In this document: positions 7,854 to 27,058 of the stretch, in pieces
Position numbering within the stretch: position 1 is the stretch's first letter
Layout: each line of letters begins with the position of its first letter
Source of the DNA: Armatimonadota bacterium
GTDB lineage: Bacteria > Sysuimicrobiota > Sysuimicrobiia > Sysuimicrobiales > Humicultoraceae
Length of the DNA: 64,000 nucleotides
Assembly: GCA_031459855.1 (NCBI GenBank)
Contig: JAVKHP010000001.1
Location: 2,013,906-2,077,905 of the forward strand
Direction of reading: 5' to 3'
Translations under genes and position numbers: made by a program
Notes under the pieces: model-generated
Database searches by the model: none
What the model was told of the DNA's origin: nothing
Seen by the model: the letters and a program-made list of their open reading frames with translations, nothing else

Positions 7854-9719
<1,866 letters not shown>

Positions 9720-13056: not shown

Positions 13057-13962
13057 CTACCGGTCGTCCAGCAGCGCCCGCAACATGGCCAGACTGCGCC
13101 GCGCGCTGTGCAGCGTGTCGGTCTGTGGCTGCACCACCCGGTCCTGCTCGACGACGATCCACCCGGTGTAGGCGGCATCCCGCAGCGCTGCCAGCAGCGC
13201 CCGCAGGTCCAGCGTGCCGCGGCCGAGTTCCACGAACACGTCCTGCCGGGCGGCGTCGACGTAGGACGCGCCGCCGGCCAGCAGCGCCCGCAGCCGCGGG
13301 AGGTCGACGTCCTTGAGGTGCACGTAGCCCAGCCGCGCCGCATGCGCGCGGGCCAGCGCCACGGGGTCGCCGCCACCGAAGGCCACGTGCCCGCTATCGA
13401 GGCACAGCTTCACCAGGTGGGGATCGCAGCGCTCCAGCAGCGTGCGGATCTCGTCGGGGTGCTCGATGTAGGTGCCGCCGTGCGGGTGGAACGAGGGCAC
13501 GAGCCCGTAGTCGAACCGGCAGAGCTGGGCCAGGCGTTCCAGCCGGGTCGCGTACCCTGGCCACTCGTGCGGCCGCAGCCCGTGCGCGCGGGTCTCGTCG
13601 GGCCGGCCGGCGATGCGCGTGCGCAGCTCGTCGCCGGCGTCGGCCAGCAGGATGTCGCGCGCGCCCAGACGCTGCAGGAGTTCGGCCGTCGCGCGGACGC
13701 GGCGTTCGCACTCGGGGTAGGCGGCCGGATCCTTGAGGGGGAGCGGCACGAAGGCCGCAGCCAGGGCCAGGCTCCGACGCGCCAGCGCCTCGGCCAGCAC
13801 CGCGGGGTCAGTCGGCAGGAACCCCCAAGGCCCCAGCTCCGTGCCCGCGTAGCCCGCAGCCTGCATCTCGTCCAGCACGCGCTCGTACGGCAGCTGCGGG
13901 CCCCAGCCCGGGATCTCGCAGACACCCCAGCTGATCGGCGCTGCGCCGATGCGGACGTTCAT
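13057..13962 (-). CDS. sugar phosphate isomerase/epimerase, IolE (myo-inosose-2 dehydratase)-like
   Basis: 301 residues of the xylose-isomerase-like TIM barrel family. The N-terminus APISWGVCEIPGWGPQLPY and the AGYAGTELGPWGFLP stretch resemble inosose dehydratases. Likely metal-site residues are the glutamate of GTELG, SFHPHGGTYIE, LCLDSGH and YVHLKD, then the VELGRG segment. The reaction in this organism cannot be fixed: no other inositol genes are near. It starts 7 bases after the lgt stop, so the two form a minus-strand operon. Could equally be a hydroxypyruvate isomerase-like or other sugar enzyme. Confidence 0.75.
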   Translation of the reverse strand: MNVRIGAAPISWGVCEIPGWGPQLPYERVLDEMQAAGYAGTELGPWGFLPTDPAVLAEALARRSLALAAAFVPLPLKDPAAYPECERRVRATAELLQRLGARDILLADAGDELRTRIAGRPDETRAHGLRPHEWPGYATRLERLAQLCRFDYGLVPSFHPHGGTYIEHPDEIRTLLERCDPHLVKLCLDSGHVAFGGGDPVALARAHAARLGYVHLKDVDLPRLRALLAGGASYVDAARQDVFVELGRGTLDLRALLAALRDAAYTGWIVVEQDRVVQPQTDTLHSARRSLAMLRALLDDR

Positions 13963-14847: not shown

Positions 14848-16311
14848 ATGAGCGCACGCACCCGTTCCGACGCCCTCGAGCACGTCCTCGCCGAACTCCG
14901 GGGGCTGCTGGGCGACCGCCTCTCGACCGCCGCCGCCGTGCGCGCCCACCACAGCCGGGGCGAGACGTACCTGCCGCCGCAGCCGCCGGACGCGGTGGCG
15001 TTCCCGCAGTCCCTCGACGAGGTGCGCGCCATCGTCGAGGCCTGCGCGCGCTGGCACCTGCCCGTGATCCCCTACGGGGCGGGCACGTCGCTGGAAGGGC
15101 ACGTGGCCGCCCCGCACGGCGGGCTCTGCATCGACCTCTCACAGATGACCCGCATCCTGCGCGTCAGCCCTGAGGACATGGACGCCACCGTCGAGGCGGG
15201 GGTCACGCACCGGCAGCTGAACCGCCACCTGCGCCGCTTCGGGCTCTTCTTCTCCGTCGACCCGGGCGCCGACGCCACGCTGGGCGGCATGGCCGCCACG
15301 CGGGCCTCGGGCACTACCGCGGTGCGCTACGGCACCATGCGCGAGAACGTCCTGGGCCTCACCGTGGTGCTCGCCGACGGCCGCGTGATCCGCACCGGCA
15401 CCCGCGCGCGCAAGTCGGCCGCGGGCTACGACCTGACGCGGCTGTTCGTGGGCTCGGAGGGTACGCTCGGGGTGATCACCGAGGTCACGGTGCGGCTACA
15501 CGGGGTGCCCGCGGCGGTGGCAGCCGCCACCTGCGCGTTCGCGACGATCGCGGGGGCCGTGGACACCGTCATCACCACGGTCCAGCTGGGCATCCCGGTG
15601 GCCCGCATCGAGCTCCTCGACGAGGTGCAGATGGACGCCTGCAACCGCTACGCGGGCCTCGACTGCCCGGTGGCGCCGACGCTCTTCCTGGAGTTCCACG
15701 GGCCCAGCGAGCGCAGCGTCGCCGAGCAGGCGGAGATGGTGCGGGAGGTGGCCGCCCAGCACGGCGGACACGAGTTCCGCTGGGCCACCGACGCCGGGGC
15801 GCGCGAGCGGTTGTGGAAGGCGCGGCACGACGCCTACTGGGCGGCGCTCGCCCTGCGGCCCGGCGCCAGCGGGCTGACCACCGACGTGTGCGTGCCCATC
15901 TCACGCCTGACCGAATGCATCGTGGAGACCAAACGCGACCTGGCGACGTCGCCGGTGCCCGTGGCGCTGGTGGGCCACGTCGGCGACGGCAACTTCCACC
16001 TGGTGTTCGTGGTCAATCCCGACGACCCCGCCGAGATGGCCGCGGTCAAGCAGCTCAACGAGCGCATGGTCCTGCGGGCGCTGGCCCTGGGCGGCACCTG
16101 CACCGGCGAGCACGGCGTGGGCCTCGGCAAGCTGCCCTACATGGCCCGGGAACACGGCGAGGCGCTGGAGGTCATGCGGGCCCTCAAGCGGGCCCTCGAT
16201 CCGCACGACATCATGAACCCCGGCAAGCTGGTGGCCGGTGGGGGCACGACCGATGTGGCGCACGACCTGGCCCCGCCGGTTGACACCGGGTGCGGCCCGC
16301 GCGTAGACTGA
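14848..16311 (+). CDS. FAD-linked D-lactate dehydrogenase / glycolate oxidase GlcD-type
   Basis: 487 residues of the vanillyl-alcohol-oxidase/FAD_binding_4 type with a FAD-oxidase C-terminal domain. The FAD loop is IPYGAGTSLEGHV near residue 77, then TLGGMAATRASGTTAVRYG and YDLTRLFVGSEGTLGVI. The C-terminal domain carries VALVGHVGDGNFH and GTCTGEHGVGLGK, typical of D-lactate dehydrogenases (LDHD/Dld type) and GlcD, which oxidise D-2-hydroxyacids. It is not followed by GlcE/GlcF partners, which favours the single-subunit lactate dehydrogenase. ATG 14848 fits the family N-terminus; upstream frame is non-homologous. The last codons overlap a promoter for the next operon. Confidence 0.85.
   Translation: MSARTRSDALEHVLAELRGLLGDRLSTAAAVRAHHSRGETYLPPQPPDAVAFPQSLDEVRAIVEACARWHLPVIPYGAGTSLEGHVAAPHGGLCIDLSQMTRILRVSPEDMDATVEAGVTHRQLNRHLRRFGLFFSVDPGADATLGGMAATRASGTTAVRYGTMRENVLGLTVVLADGRVIRTGTRARKSAAGYDLTRLFVGSEGTLGVITEVTVRLHGVPAAVAAATCAFATIAGAVDTVITTVQLGIPVARIELLDEVQMDACNRYAGLDCPVAPTLFLEFHGPSERSVAEQAEMVREVAAQHGGHEFRWATDAGARERLWKARHDAYWAALALRPGASGLTTDVCVPISRLTECIVETKRDLATSPVPVALVGHVGDGNFHLVFVVNPDDPAEMAAVKQLNERMVLRALALGGTCTGEHGVGLGKLPYMAREHGEALEVMRALKRALDPHDIMNPGKLVAGGGTTDVAHDLAPPVDTGCGPRVD
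16280..16309 (+). promoter_or_regulatory. promoter for the fluoride-riboswitch operon
   Basis: TTGACA at 16280-16285 and TAGACT at 16304-16309, 18 bases apart, lie at the very end of the preceding dehydrogenase gene. The start point would be about 16316, some 18 bases before the riboswitch aptamer. The perfect -35 box and position make this one of the more convincing promoters in the window. Confidence 0.7.
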
Positions 16312-16333
16312 GCGGTGACAGCCGCATAGTGGT

Positions 16334-16386
16334 GGCGATGGAGCTCGCCAAGCGCCCGGGCGTGCGGGCTGATAGCTCCTACTGAC
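16334..16386 (+). promoter_or_regulatory. fluoride riboswitch (crcB RNA motif)
   Basis: The aptamer matches the fluoride class closely. A 5' GGCGATGG is followed by the P1 strand GGAGCT (16340-16345) and CGCC (16346-16349), which forms the pseudoknot with GGCG (16334-16337). P3 is GCCC (16354-16357) with GGGC (16366-16369), then CTGATAGCTCCTACTG, where AGCTCC (16374-16379) closes P1. Known members turn on fluoride-resistance genes when fluoride binds. Here the P1 3' strand is also the 5' arm of a terminator, so fluoride binding should prevent termination. The genes downstream are uncharacterised, which is unusual for this class. Confidence 0.93.
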
Positions 16387-16409
16387 CGGCAGGTCGGTAG
16401 GAGCTTTTT
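16374..16409 (+). terminator. riboswitch-controlled intrinsic terminator
   Basis: AGCTCCTAC (16374-16382) pairs perfectly with GTAGGAGCT (16397-16405), extended by TGACC/GGTCG with one wobble, loop GGCA, followed by TTTTT (16405-16409). Its 5' arm overlaps the P1 3' strand of the fluoride aptamer, so the two folds are mutually exclusive. It would also end transcripts from the upstream dehydrogenase gene. Confidence 0.9.
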
Positions 16410-16425
16410 GATTCTGGGGCGGACC

Positions 16426-16929
16426 ATGGCGCAGACCTCGACGATCGCGATCGAGTTGCTCGAGGACGACGCCCGCGCCGTCGTGCAGGCGGCAGGCGGC
16501 GATGGCCCCGACCTGCCCCACCGGCTGGCCGCGCTGGTGGCCGAGGGCCTGGACCAGTACCTCCGCGACGAGGCTGCCTGGGAGGTCGCGGCGGGCACGG
16601 GTGCTGGAGTCGGAGCCCAGACGCCCTCAGTGGTCCTCCAGCACCGGGAGGCCGAGGCGCTGGTGGTCGTCATGCGGGCGCGCACCATCACCAGCGAACG
16701 GCACGTCGAGGCCCTGCAAGCACGTGTCCGCGAGCTGGCCCGCGAGCACGCAGCGTACAGGGAGCACATGGCGCGCCTGCGCACGGCAGCCGGGCACCTG
16801 CGGCAACGGCGCGCTCAGCTGCGTGCCGTGCTACATGGCGGGGCGTCGGCCGACGCGGCGACACGCCCGCTCGCGGTGCGGATCGCTGCCCGCCTGCGCG
16901 GGATGCTGCGGCGTGGAACGCCGCCATGA
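16426..16929 (+). CDS. uncharacterised helical protein, first gene of the fluoride-controlled operon
   Basis: 167 residues, not recognised. Residues 5-50 (TIAIELLEDDARAVV ... LAALVAEGLDQYL) look like a short strand followed by two helices, reminiscent of a ribbon-helix-helix fold but without certainty. Residues 75-135 form a probable coiled coil rich in Glu, Arg, Ala and Leu, and the C-terminus is basic. No signal peptide or membrane segment. ATG 16426 lies 16 bases after the terminator U-tract; the stop overlaps the next gene by four bases. Its layout resembles that of the next protein, so the two may be distant paralogues acting together. Confidence 0.75.
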   Translation: MAQTSTIAIELLEDDARAVVQAAGGDGPDLPHRLAALVAEGLDQYLRDEAAWEVAAGTGAGVGAQTPSVVLQHREAEALVVVMRARTITSERHVEALQARVRELAREHAAYREHMARLRTAAGHLRQRRAQLRAVLHGGASADAATRPLAVRIAARLRGMLRRGTPP

Positions 16930-17432
16930 CGACGCTGATCTTCCCCAAGGTGGCGCAGGTGACCGTGGCACTGCCCGATGGGCTGCGGCAGCGGTTGGAG
17001 ACGTTCGCCGCTGCGCGCGGGTGGGGTGTGGACGAGGCCGCGAGGCTGCTGCTGGCCTACGCGGTCGTCACCCGCGCGGGCCGTGCCCTGACGCCCGAGG
17101 AAACGGTCAACAGCTGGAGCGCGGCCCGTGCCGAGCTGGCCCTGTTGCGGCACCGGGCCTACCTGGCCGACGACGCCGCGCGGACCCTGCGCATGAACGT
17201 CACAGGACTGGAGGCGTCCAACACCCAGTACCGGCGCTCGCTGCCTGCCGTCGAAGCGGAGGTTGCGCGGCTGGAGGCGGAGATCCGGGACCTGGAAGCC
17301 CAGTGCATCCGGCGTGGCCTGCCGGTCCCGGCGCCGGAGCCGGTGGAGCCGCCACCCGCTGCCGCACCGCTGGACTTCTTCCGGCGCACCCGCGCCGCCG
17401 ACGGTCGAGGTGATCCGGGTGGCGGCCGGTGA
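16926..17432 (+). CDS. uncharacterised coiled-coil protein, second gene of the fluoride-controlled operon
   Basis: 168 residues, not recognised. Residues 9-45 (QVTVALPDGLRQRLETFAA then GWGVDEAARLLLAYAVV) have the strand-helix-helix pattern of ribbon-helix-helix (CopG/MetJ-like) proteins. Residues 60-125 are a long coiled coil (LPAVEAEVARLEAEIRDLEAQ), followed by a proline-rich linker. ATG 16926 overlaps the previous stop (ATGA), and the C-terminal end overlaps the start of the third gene. Whether it binds DNA or serves as a structural partner cannot be told from sequence. Confidence 0.75.
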   Translation: MTTLIFPKVAQVTVALPDGLRQRLETFAAARGWGVDEAARLLLAYAVVTRAGRALTPEETVNSWSAARAELALLRHRAYLADDAARTLRMNVTGLEASNTQYRRSLPAVEAEVARLEAEIRDLEAQCIRRGLPVPAPEPVEPPPAAAPLDFFRRTRAADGRGDPGGGR

Positions 17433-18195
17433 GTCCGCCCTCGCACGGGACTTCGTGTACCACGCGCTGGTGGCGGGGCTCCATCCCGATCACTGCGTCG
17501 TCTGCCGCCTCAGTCTGGACAGTGTCGAGCGCCACTTTCAGGCGTTCTTCTACGAGCAGGTGAACGACCCATGGGTGCGGCACGCGCTGGTCGCCGCGCG
17601 CGGGTTCTGCCCGACGCACGCCTGGCGGCGTCCCGGGCTGCACGACGCCTCCGGGATCTCCATTGTCTACCATCACCTGCTCTCGGAGCTCGTCACGGTG
17701 TTTCGGGCTGCCGCCGACAGTGCCGCGCACGCGCGCGCAGGCAGCGCGCCGGTGCGGCGGCGGTGGCGCCTGCGCCCTGGCCGCCGGGTCGCCGGCGCCC
17801 TCGCCGCATGGATGACCCCCCGGGGACCGTGCCCGATGTGCGTGACCCAGTGGGAGGCCGAGGACCGGTATGCCGCGGTGCTGGTCCGCGCAGCGGCTGC
17901 CGACGAGTTCCGGGATCGCTACCGGGACAGCTTCGGCGTGTGCATGCCGCACCTGGTCTTGGCCCTCGGACAGGGTGCGGCTCCAGCGGCCTGCGACTGG
18001 TTGGTGGCCACGGAAGGCGCAAAGCTCGCCCGCCTGCTCTGGGAGCTGTCGGAGTACATTCGCAAGCTGGACTACCGGTTCCGGCACGAGACCGTGCTGC
18101 GAGAAGCCACGGCGTGGCAGCGCGCCATCGAGAAGCTGGTCGGGGCGCCGGGCATGGTGTGGCGGCGGTCGCCGACGTCGGCGGATACCCGCTGA
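17410..18195 (+). CDS. DUF6062-like protein with duplicated C-x2-C ... C-x2-H motif
   Basis: About 261 residues. Two repeats share one pattern: C29-x2-C32 with C67-x2-H70 (GFCPTH), and C141-x2-C144 (CPMC) with C178-x2-H181 (GVCMPH); spacing between pairs is 34 and 33 residues. This looks like two zinc- or other metal-binding modules. The overall pattern resembles DUF6062 proteins, whose function I do not know. The region between the repeats is Arg-rich, and a helical C-terminal part follows. The start is uncertain (GTG 17410 or 17419), overlapping the previous gene by about 20 bases. It is the last gene of the fluoride-riboswitch operon; the next gene is convergent. Confidence 0.7.
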   Translation: MIRVAAGESALARDFVYHALVAGLHPDHCVVCRLSLDSVERHFQAFFYEQVNDPWVRHALVAARGFCPTHAWRRPGLHDASGISIVYHHLLSELVTVFRAAADSAAHARAGSAPVRRRWRLRPGRRVAGALAAWMTPRGPCPMCVTQWEAEDRYAAVLVRAAAADEFRDRYRDSFGVCMPHLVLALGQGAAPAACDWLVATEGAKLARLLWELSEYIRKLDYRFRHETVLREATAWQRAIEKLVGAPGMVWRRSPTSADTR

Positions 18196-18362: not shown

Positions 18363-19544
18363 TCACCCGCGTCTGCGCACCACCACGAAGAGGGGCACAG
18401 CCGCCAGCTGCGCCGCCAGCGAGAACACCACGACGGCCGCGACCGCACGATCGTAGAGCGCGCCCATCAACGCGCTCCCGAGGAACCACGCGATCCCGTA
18501 CGCGGCGTTGAGCGCGCCGTAGGCGGCACCCCGCCGGTCGGCTGGCGCCATCTCCGCCACCGCGGCCCGCATGATCGACTCCTGCGCGCCCAGCCCCACG
18601 CCCCACAGCAGCACGCCCGCAAGCGCCAGGGTCGGGCTCCCCAGGAAGGCCAGGGGCACAAACCCCGCCCCAAGCAGCGTCGCGGGCACCAGCACGGTGA
18701 CTCCTGCCCGGTCGAACCACCGGCCGAGCCCGAGGGCCGCGACGGCGTCGGCGCCCATGGCGAGGGCGTAGAAGAGGGGTATCCAGGTCGCTGGGACCAC
18801 GGCGCGCGCCTCGAAGTGGAAGGCGATGAGGGCGAAGTCCGCATAGCCCGCGCCCACCAGCGCCACGGCCGCCACGTACAGCCAGAACCGGCGTCCCAGG
18901 CCGGCTGGCGCGAGCGGCGGCGTCGCCACGTCCAGGTCGCGCGGACGCGGGTACAGGCGGCGGGCCACCACGAGCACGCCCAGGGCTAGCGCCGCCGGGA
19001 CGATCAGGAGGACGAACCCGTCCCGGTACGTGCCCCGGGTGCCCACGGCCGCCGCCACGACGAGCGGGCCCAGCACGGCCCCGACCTGGTCCAGCGCCTC
19101 GTGGAGGCCGAATCCGTAGCCGCGCCCGACCTGCTGGGTGGCATGTGACAGCATGGCGTCGCGGGCCGGCGTCCGGATCGCCTTGCCGACGCGCTCGGCG
19201 ACCACCAGCGCGGCGGCCGTGGTCCAGTGCCCTGCCAGCGCCAGCGCCGGGACCGCCGCGAGGTTCACCACGTAGCCGGTGATCGTGATCGCCCAGTAGC
19301 GACGGGTGCGGTCGGCCAGGCGGCCGGAGACCAGGCGCAGCGCGTAGCCGACCAACTCGCCCAGGCCCGCGACGACGCCCACCGCAGTGGCGCTGGCTCC
19401 CAGCACCGCCAGATAGGGGCCGGTCACGCTGCGCGAGCCCTCGTAGGTGGCGTCGGCGAGCAGGCTCACCACGCCCAGCAGGACCACGAACCGGAGGGCT
19501 GTCCGGCGGCTGTCCTCGGCGGTGGGTGGCGCGGCGACCATCAC
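18363..19544 (-). CDS. MFS transporter
   Basis: 393 residues with twelve predicted transmembrane helices. The inter-helix 2-3 loop LRLVSGRLADRTRRYW matches the MFS motif A pattern, and RRGAAYGALNAAYGIAWFLG near the end of the second half is typical of drug/metabolite exporters of the DHA1 type. The substrate is not predictable. It is the distal gene of the minus-strand fluoride-riboswitch unit, after the antiporter and a universal-stress-protein remnant, so export of a toxic ion or stress-related solute is possible but inferred only from context. ATG 19544; GTG just upstream is an alternative. Confidence 0.85.
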   Translation of the reverse strand: MMVAAPPTAEDSRRTALRFVVLLGVVSLLADATYEGSRSVTGPYLAVLGASATAVGVVAGLGELVGYALRLVSGRLADRTRRYWAITITGYVVNLAAVPALALAGHWTTAAALVVAERVGKAIRTPARDAMLSHATQQVGRGYGFGLHEALDQVGAVLGPLVVAAAVGTRGTYRDGFVLLIVPAALALGVLVVARRLYPRPRDLDVATPPLAPAGLGRRFWLYVAAVALVGAGYADFALIAFHFEARAVVPATWIPLFYALAMGADAVAALGLGRWFDRAGVTVLVPATLLGAGFVPLAFLGSPTLALAGVLLWGVGLGAQESIMRAAVAEMAPADRRGAAYGALNAAYGIAWFLGSALMGALYDRAVAAVVVFSLAAQLAAVPLFVVVRRRG

Positions 19545-19560
19545 CGTACGCTCCGGGTAT

Positions 19561-19608
19561 CAGTGCACCAGCAGGACCATCGTAGCCGACCAGGATGCGC
19601 CGGAACAT
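19561..19608 (-). pseudogene. 5' remnant of a universal stress protein (UspA) gene
   Basis: The ATG at 19608 overlaps the antiporter stop (TGATG). It is followed by the codons for MFRRILVGYDGPAGA, which matches the beginning of UspA proteins (usually FRRILVGYDGS). After about 15 codons the homology ends and the frame runs uselessly into the MFS gene. The rest of the gene, with its ATP-binding GxGxxG region, is missing. The MFS start lies 64 bases downstream, so a deletion probably joined the two. Universal stress proteins are known partners of fluoride riboswitches. Confidence 0.6.
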
Positions 19609-20846: not shown

Positions 20847-20877
20847 GGCCCCTACCCGCGGAATGTGGGTAGGAGCC
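20847..20877 (-). terminator. expression-platform hairpin of the minus-strand fluoride riboswitch
   Basis: On the minus strand GGCTCCTACCC (20877-20867) pairs over 11 positions, one G-U, with GGGTAGGGGCC (20857-20847). Its 5' arm is the 3' strand of aptamer P1, as expected for a fluoride switch. No U tract follows, so it may act as a weak or factor-aided terminator or in another way; the ribosome-binding site lies further downstream and is not within it. Confidence 0.7.
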
Positions 20878-20916
20878 ATCAGCCCGAAGAGGGCGGTTCA
20901 GGCGGGCCCCATCGCC
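20867..20916 (-). promoter_or_regulatory. fluoride riboswitch (crcB RNA motif) upstream of the antiporter
   Basis: Minus-strand RNA begins GGCGATGG, with P1 GGGGCC closing on GGCTCC, pseudoknot GGCG/CGCC, P3 GCCC/GGGC, and the conserved CTGATGGCTCCTAC end. It aligns base for base with the plus-strand copy at 16334 except in the P3 loop and P1 compensations. The aptamer begins almost at the predicted transcription start. It should raise antiporter expression when fluoride is present. Confidence 0.92.
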
Positions 20917-20924
20917 TGGGCTGG

Positions 20925-20954
20925 ATTATAGGTGCTCCCGGGAGAGTGCGTCCA
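20925..20954 (-). promoter_or_regulatory. promoter of the antiporter fluoride-riboswitch transcript
   Basis: A perfect TATAAT lies at 20930-20925 on the minus strand; 18 bases upstream is TGGACG (20954-20949), a fair -35. The transcription start would be around 20918, so the fluoride aptamer starts within two or three bases of the RNA 5' end. Confidence 0.7.
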
Positions 20955-26953: not shown

Positions 26954-27058
26954 CTCTTATCAAGAGTGGGTGAGGGACGGGCCCGATGACCCCCGGCAAC
27001 CTGCCGCCGCCGCGGTAAGGTGCCAAGCCCCGCGGAACCCAGTTCCGGCGGATAAGAG
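26954..27058 (+). promoter_or_regulatory. SAM-I (S-box) riboswitch
   Basis: P1 CTCTTATC (26954-26961) closes on GATAAGAG (27051-27058). Inside are the conserved AAGAGTGGGTGAGGGA stretch, the kink-turn/pseudoknot region GGCCCGATGACCCCCGGCAACC and the AAGGTGCCAAGCCC segment with a variable P3-P4. This is a complete SAM-I aptamer. In the family, S-adenosylmethionine binding stabilises the aptamer and favours the terminator, switching off methionine-related genes. Here the downstream gene is homoserine kinase. Confidence 0.96.

Follow-up and report, generated by a model that had tools for sequence, protein, structure and literature searches.

In a 64,000-nt stretch of DNA from an Armatimonadota bacterium (the window, to whose positions all coordinates refer), a predicted fluoride riboswitch precedes a forward-strand operon of three genes, here called P1, P2, and P3, which encode two ribbon-helix-helix (RHH)-like proteins and a member of DUF6062 (PF19538), a family that carries no described function. 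We read this operon as the rightward half of a two-switch fluoride-defense island, in which the three proteins have the roles set out below. For this reading as a whole we estimate a probability of about one half; its regulatory part is very probable, and the roles assigned to the proteins are doubtful. Judged from sequence comparison, the window carries two predicted ON-type fluoride riboswitch leaders with a conserved genomic link, and the link of the aptamer to P1-P2 and to DUF6062 is not accidental.

The predicted fluoride riboswitch leader

The leader of the operon holds the elements of a transcriptional switch, as first proposed in the original prediction. A sigma-70-like promoter, TTGACA-18-TAGACT (16280-16309, forward strand), recognized by consensus match only (10 of 12 positions; 0.0 expected, 50 shuffles), lies within the 3′ end of the upstream FAD-oxidase open reading frame. 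The aptamer follows at 16325-16388 on the same strand and scores 37.9 bits with the Rfam covariance model RF01734, whose gathering score is 34 (E 6e-7 in the scan of the window and 7.6e-9 when its own genome was searched alone). The entire 3.19-Mb genome has two matches to this model, both inside the window. Both are included in a 42-sequence alignment in which the aptamer core has 15 invariant columns, and the pseudoknot segments, in the loop and the 3′ strand, are complementary. The expression platform is an intrinsic terminator (16374-16409, forward strand) just before the P1 start codon; its hairpin (16374-16405) has a 14-bp stem and a loop of 4, is followed by TTTT, and was expected 0.0 times in shuffles. 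As the 5′ arm of the terminator is the aptamer 3′-strand segment AGCTCCTAC, the two structures are mutually exclusive. The arrangement recurs in 14 related leaders, where this part of the aptamer again pairs as the 5′ arm in a strong hairpin; in most of them a T-rich run follows. The scores and the same position in relatives rule out a chance aptamer match, and the conservation of the P1-P3 frames across other genera rules out spurious open reading frames.

In the fluoride riboswitch class, binding of Mg-fluoride stabilizes the aptamer and lets transcription proceed. The leader shares with this class (the crcB motif, RF01734) the core sequence, the pseudoknot segments, the overlap with an intrinsic terminator, and the 5′-leader position, but the genes that it would control here are absent from the usual targets named in the sources (PMC11139923, PMC2864571). 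An overlapping-terminator platform is known for crcB RNAs, and its ligand is expected to raise expression (PMC2864571). We therefore propose a transcriptional ON switch for P1-P2-P3, in which the aptamer 3′ strand would be either held in the pseudoknot or used as the terminator 5′ arm, and in which Mg-fluoride, as in the known class, would prevent termination.

Conservation of the association with fluoride aptamers

The home group of this genome is a set of 43 genomes, identical at phylum, class, and order level, whose NCBI contig titles read Armatimonadota or Armatimonadetes and otherwise Bacillota or simply bacterium. Aptamers are present in 21 of the 43. Fourteen genomes have a P1-P2 pair, and in each of them the first gene starts at most 200 nt from, and behind, a fluoride aptamer (that of G011 is weak, E 0.04); a fifteenth, decayed copy in G009 (L132) still has its aptamer. 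Full-length DUF6062 genes are on the same strand as, and at most 3 kb behind, an aptamer in 10 of 11 cases. The distance is 0.8-1.05 kb in eight of these; in G028 it is 25 nt, and in G016, where DUF6062 belongs to an operon of a cation/proton antiporter (CPA) and an MFS transporter, it is 2.9 kb. A diverged pair of DUF6062 copies (G028) and a DUF6062 fragment (G038) are not behind an aptamer.

The gene order aptamer-RHH1-RHH2-DUF6062-MFS-aptamer-CPA is found in G039 and G040, the order aptamer-RHH1-RHH2-MFS-aptamer-CPA, without DUF6062, in G034 and G037, aptamer-DUF6062 alone in G028, and aptamer-CPA-MFS-DUF6062 facing aptamer-RHH1-RHH2 in G016. The RHH pair occurs without P3 in G002 and G034-G037, and P3 without the pair in G028, L072, L073, L083, and L115. 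P3 and P1-P2 are thus separable modules, and an obligate three-gene unit is ruled out. The proposal that tight overlap makes joint function likely is weakened, because the modules occur separately elsewhere. In L047 (G026), two back-to-back aptamer pairs were seen at 7906-8277 and 13558-13863, on opposite strands and 160-240 nt apart; similar pairs also occur in several Chloroflexota genomes.

The association extends beyond the home group. A contig search with P3 as the single query returned no loci, and the P3 alignment as query returned 51, 45 of them outside the home group and labeled Chloroflexota, Bacillota, Rokuibacteriota, Spirochaetes, Thermodesulfobacteriota, UBP3, FCPU426, and others. 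An aptamer lies <1 kb upstream on the same strand at 18 of these 45 loci, a count obtained with a covariance model built solely on home-group aptamers. The Rfam model itself reaches at least its cut-off upstream of DUF6062 at eight of these loci (L072, L073, L087, L094, L112, L113, L114, and L115). Aptamer-DUF6062 units are also found on contigs labeled Rokuibacteriota, Spirochaetes, Thermodesulfobacteriota, UBP3, and Bacillota, some beside CrcB or CPA; CrcB directly follows DUF6062 in L083, and CPA does so in L115. In the Ardenticatenia (L080, L086), the series CPA-Usp-DUF6062-DUF6062 (Usp, universal stress protein) is followed by an RHH-like homolog (E 5e-17 and 4e-15), so that the RHH-like partner exists in a second phylum too. 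Fluoride aptamers are therefore found ahead of operon homologs from other genera, other families, and other phyla. The original prediction had named two sequence-based results that would speak against it, failure of the covariance model and absence of such homologs, and it survived both.

An analysis of 301 Chloroflexota genomes used the Pfam DUF6062 and Rfam fluoride models alone, independently of the window sequences. It gave 104 DUF6062 matches and, among the matches listed, 150 aptamers. Fifteen DUF6062 genes start at most 300 nt behind an aptamer, against about 0.002 expected, and 24 have an aptamer within 2.5 kb upstream, compared with 0 in the downstream control and 2 upstream on the opposite strand. 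When mapped on a 56-domain tree, the presence of an aptamer is clustered, with 10 changes against a shuffled mean of 18, and none of 500 shuffles was as low.

These distributions bear on a rather unlikely alternative, a general stress island in which the riboswitch merely couples ordinary ion or pH stress genes, P1-P2-P3 would act in broad metal or acid stress, and the link to fluoride would be incidental. Usp, MutS-like, HEAT, and dynamin-like genes among the neighbors would fit such an island, as would one DUF6062 clade and many single genes without aptamers, and fluoride regulons already include pH-homeostasis genes (PMC11139923). However, the association recurs specifically with fluoride aptamers and CrcB, and P1-P2 lies behind an aptamer in every one of the 14 genomes that have the pair.

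Several further observations were made at DUF6062 loci. In L095, a further aptamer lies 951 nt from DUF6062 with a small gene between. Small proteins of one cluster, encoded at L095:2670-3101 and L086:4926-5393 (both forward strand), lie directly after a weak match to the fluoride aptamer, with DUF6062 downstream; that of L095 is a zinc-ribbon and HEAT-repeat protein. A MoxR-type AAA ATPase gene and a DUF58 gene adjoin DUF6062 in L106, L114, L078, and L082, with an aptamer upstream in several. In L084 and L089 (a Bacillota metagenome-assembled genome), a dynamin-like GTPase gene directly follows DUF6062, and no aptamer was found directly upstream. In an aptamer-free Anaerolineae clade (L070, L074, L075, L077, L090, L092, L097, L108, and L109), a radical-SAM gene is convergent with DUF6062, and at most loci there is also a small gene with similarity to the C-terminal domain of U32 peptidases. 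Across the class to which one Syntrophomonadaceae genome belongs, only 1 of 63 has DUF6062.

The proteins encoded by the operon

P1 (167 aa; 16426-16929, forward strand) and P2 (168 aa; 16926-17432, forward strand) are encoded by genes joined by an ATGA overlap. They are paralogs, as a profile of P1 orthologs retrieves P2 at E 1e-33. The AlphaFold2 model of P2 (pLDDT 84) has two short helices after an extended N-terminus, followed by one 73-residue helix; in this monomer model the two helices are placed as in the RHH fold, with no strand. The most conserved stretch of P2 lies within the long helix (R68, E70, L71, L74, R75, R77, and N91). A similarity of P2 to ankyrin was dismissed, as the per-domain E-values were >1 in the alignments shown. 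P2 resembles RHH regulators such as Arc, CopG, FitA, and AmrZ in its modeled helix-turn-helix order after the N-terminal extended segment; the pair differs from them in being tandem paralogs, with the 73-residue helix, a strongly conserved post-RHH region, and no toxin partner.

P3 (261 aa; 17410-18195, forward strand, from GTG 17410, the start codon being uncertain) matches PF19538 over its full length (51.2 bits against a cut-off of 27; profile positions 18-238 of 243). It bears two CxxC...CxxH modules, whose residues C29, C32, C67, H70, C141, C144, C178, and H181 are 100% conserved in the rows filling these columns (43-44 in the main group and 11-12 in the Anaerolineae clade), in agreement with the early description of a DUF6062-like protein with two such modules. 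The AlphaFold2 model is confident and all-helical (pLDDT 86, pTM 0.80). Rows resembling 14-3-3 proteins were discarded, with Z at most 5 over about 80 residues, as is typical of helical proteins in general. These features suggest that P3 may be a cytosolic zinc (or other metal) protein.

It is improbable, in our estimate, that P3, with or without P1-P2, itself binds fluoride or metal-fluoride and so sequesters or senses intracellular fluoride as a second layer behind the riboswitch. The recurrence of DUF6062 behind fluoride aptamers in several phyla would agree with such a binder, and so would the carboxylate and amide positions E49, N52, and D53, conserved in most members, and the tandem copies and double-length members, with up to four Cys/His modules, that also occur, as a binding protein might have. 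However, Cys3His sites prefer soft metals and fluoride prefers hard ones, which makes a structural role of the conserved site more likely, and the aptamer-free Anaerolineae clade retains the same residues. The related suggestion in the original prediction, that the proteins sense fluoride-metal complexes, found nothing in the analysis to support it.

The second switch and known fluoride-switch targets

The second and stronger aptamer (20863-20925, reverse strand; RF01734, 56.8 bits against the gathering score of 34), which the original prediction had missed, lies 2.7 kb beyond the operon, in the leader of a CPA gene and then an MFS gene that run convergently toward P1-P2-P3. The CPA-type cation/proton antiporter gene (Na_H_Exchanger, PF00999; 19608-20810, reverse strand) starts with ATG 20810 after AGGAG, and the MFS transporter gene (18363-19544, reverse strand) lies behind it. 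With this second aptamer and the facing CPA and MFS genes, the region as a whole is best seen as a fluoride island. The claim that the genes downstream of the aptamer are not known fluoride genes stands for the operon itself, and it does not extend to its surroundings. The hairpin of the second leader has no T-run, so that its mode of control may differ from that of the first. Between CPA and MFS lies the start of a Usp gene, MFRRILVGYDGPAGAL (19560-19608, reverse strand), a relic that overlaps the CPA stop codon and is then broken; in L115, an intact Usp (PF00582) follows CPA. Elsewhere in the window, a SAM riboswitch (RF00162) is found at 26954-27058 on the forward strand (85.7 bits).

The targets of fluoride switches named in these sources comprise exporters, Na+/H+ antiporters, pyrophosphatase, enolase, haloacid-dehalogenase-fold proteins, formate hydrogen lyase, mutS, and K+/Cl- transport (PMC11139923, PMC2864571), and CPA antiporters are the next commonest associated class after exporters (PMC11139923). 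The second switch of the window would drive a gene of this latter class; what sets it apart is that the gene is convergent with the RHH, DUF6062, and MFS genes and joined to them in relatives. The operon is likewise predicted to be fluoride-switched, as are Fluc/CrcB and CLC-F exporter operons, and DUF6062 adjoins CrcB in L083 and L116. However, none of P1-P3 is a transporter, the operon has no CRCB or Voltage_CLC family match, and a family-model search found neither CrcB nor CLC in this genome, whose assembly is 97.7% complete and perhaps incomplete. Within the home group of 43 genomes, 3 have CrcB and 6 have CLC.

The lack of a CrcB or CLC match raises the question of whether this lineage in fact exports fluoride through the MFS or the CPA protein, with P1-P2-P3 only regulating or assembling that transporter. 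MFS orthologs lie within the RHH or DUF6062 operons of relatives, and at the end of such operons, or directly behind an aptamer (G026), and transporters beyond Fluc and CLC, such as BenE-I, can confer fluoride tolerance (PMC13104614). Against this, fluoride-switched CPA genes are usually read as serving pH homeostasis (PMC11139923), and DUF6062 is also found with CrcB and without MFS (L083, L115), so that a role tied solely to MFS is unlikely. We regard this explanation as quite improbable.

A literature search found no mention of DUF6062 and nothing joining a fluoride riboswitch with ribbon-helix-helix proteins; the 2012 gene list for the fluoride riboswitch was outside its scope, so an earlier listing is possible.

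Proposed mechanism

In the two-switch defense island that we favor, fluoride would enter the cell as HF and relieve termination ahead of P1-P2-P3, and the second switch would control CPA-MFS in the opposite direction. CPA and MFS would cope with the ion and pH load and possibly export fluoride, since neither CrcB nor CLC was found in the genome. P1 and P2 may pair as a DNA-binding heterodimer of RHH type, with a long coiled coil as its extension, and act as a fluoride-induced regulator or chromosome-binding factor. P3 would be soluble and all-helical, with two Cys3His sites for a metal, most probably zinc. Acting alone in the cytosol, it would protect fluoride-sensitive, metal-dependent functions or serve them as an adaptor, and would not be a transporter. 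P3 and P1-P2 would thus be separable modules under a common fluoride signal.

Several results weigh against this reading. Neither P1 nor P2 reaches a Pfam cut-off, the best RHH score being 14.2 bits for FitA-like RHH against a cut-off of 27, and the leading Foldseek matches of P2, mostly RHH repressors or antitoxins (Arc, AtaR, AmrZ, CopG, FitA), are all non-significant (E at least 0.5). The proteins are for this reason called RHH-like only; of the earlier description as RHH/coiled-coil-like, the RHH-like character and the long helix stand, and the homology of P1 to P2 is added. The P3 model has no significant Foldseek match to solved structures, which does not by itself prove a new fold, and the role of P3 is for this reason guessed. 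No aptamer lies within 2.5 kb of 80 of the 104 Chloroflexota DUF6062 matches, among the matches listed, and 12 of the 23 aptamer-free rows of the tree form the single Anaerolineae clade adjoining the radical-SAM gene (SH-aLRT 100). DUF6062 is therefore not exclusively a fluoride family and may have a second, fluoride-independent context in this clade. The possible incompleteness of the assembly also limits what the missing exporters can tell.

The original prediction of a new fluoride-response system is best kept as that of a fluoride-response gene set with uncharacterized members. It is not self-contained, because here and elsewhere its genes sit with CPA, MFS, Usp, or MutS-like genes or with CrcB.

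Implications

Work on the biology of fluoride stress rests on two families of exporters and on the listed neighbors of the riboswitch. We tentatively suggest that DUF6062 could be an unrecognized, widespread fluoride-response family, with the RHH-like pair as its lineage-specific partner, which would allow survival without Fluc or CLC by means other than the known export, for instance by metal-fluoride binding or by shielding metalloenzymes. A family without a described function that turns up after fluoride switches in several phyla, including in a lineage without a detectable exporter, gives a direct starting point for finding a further step in fluoride resistance. Such a step may also be relevant to the engineering of organofluorine metabolism, where fluoride toxicity is a bottleneck (PMC11139923).

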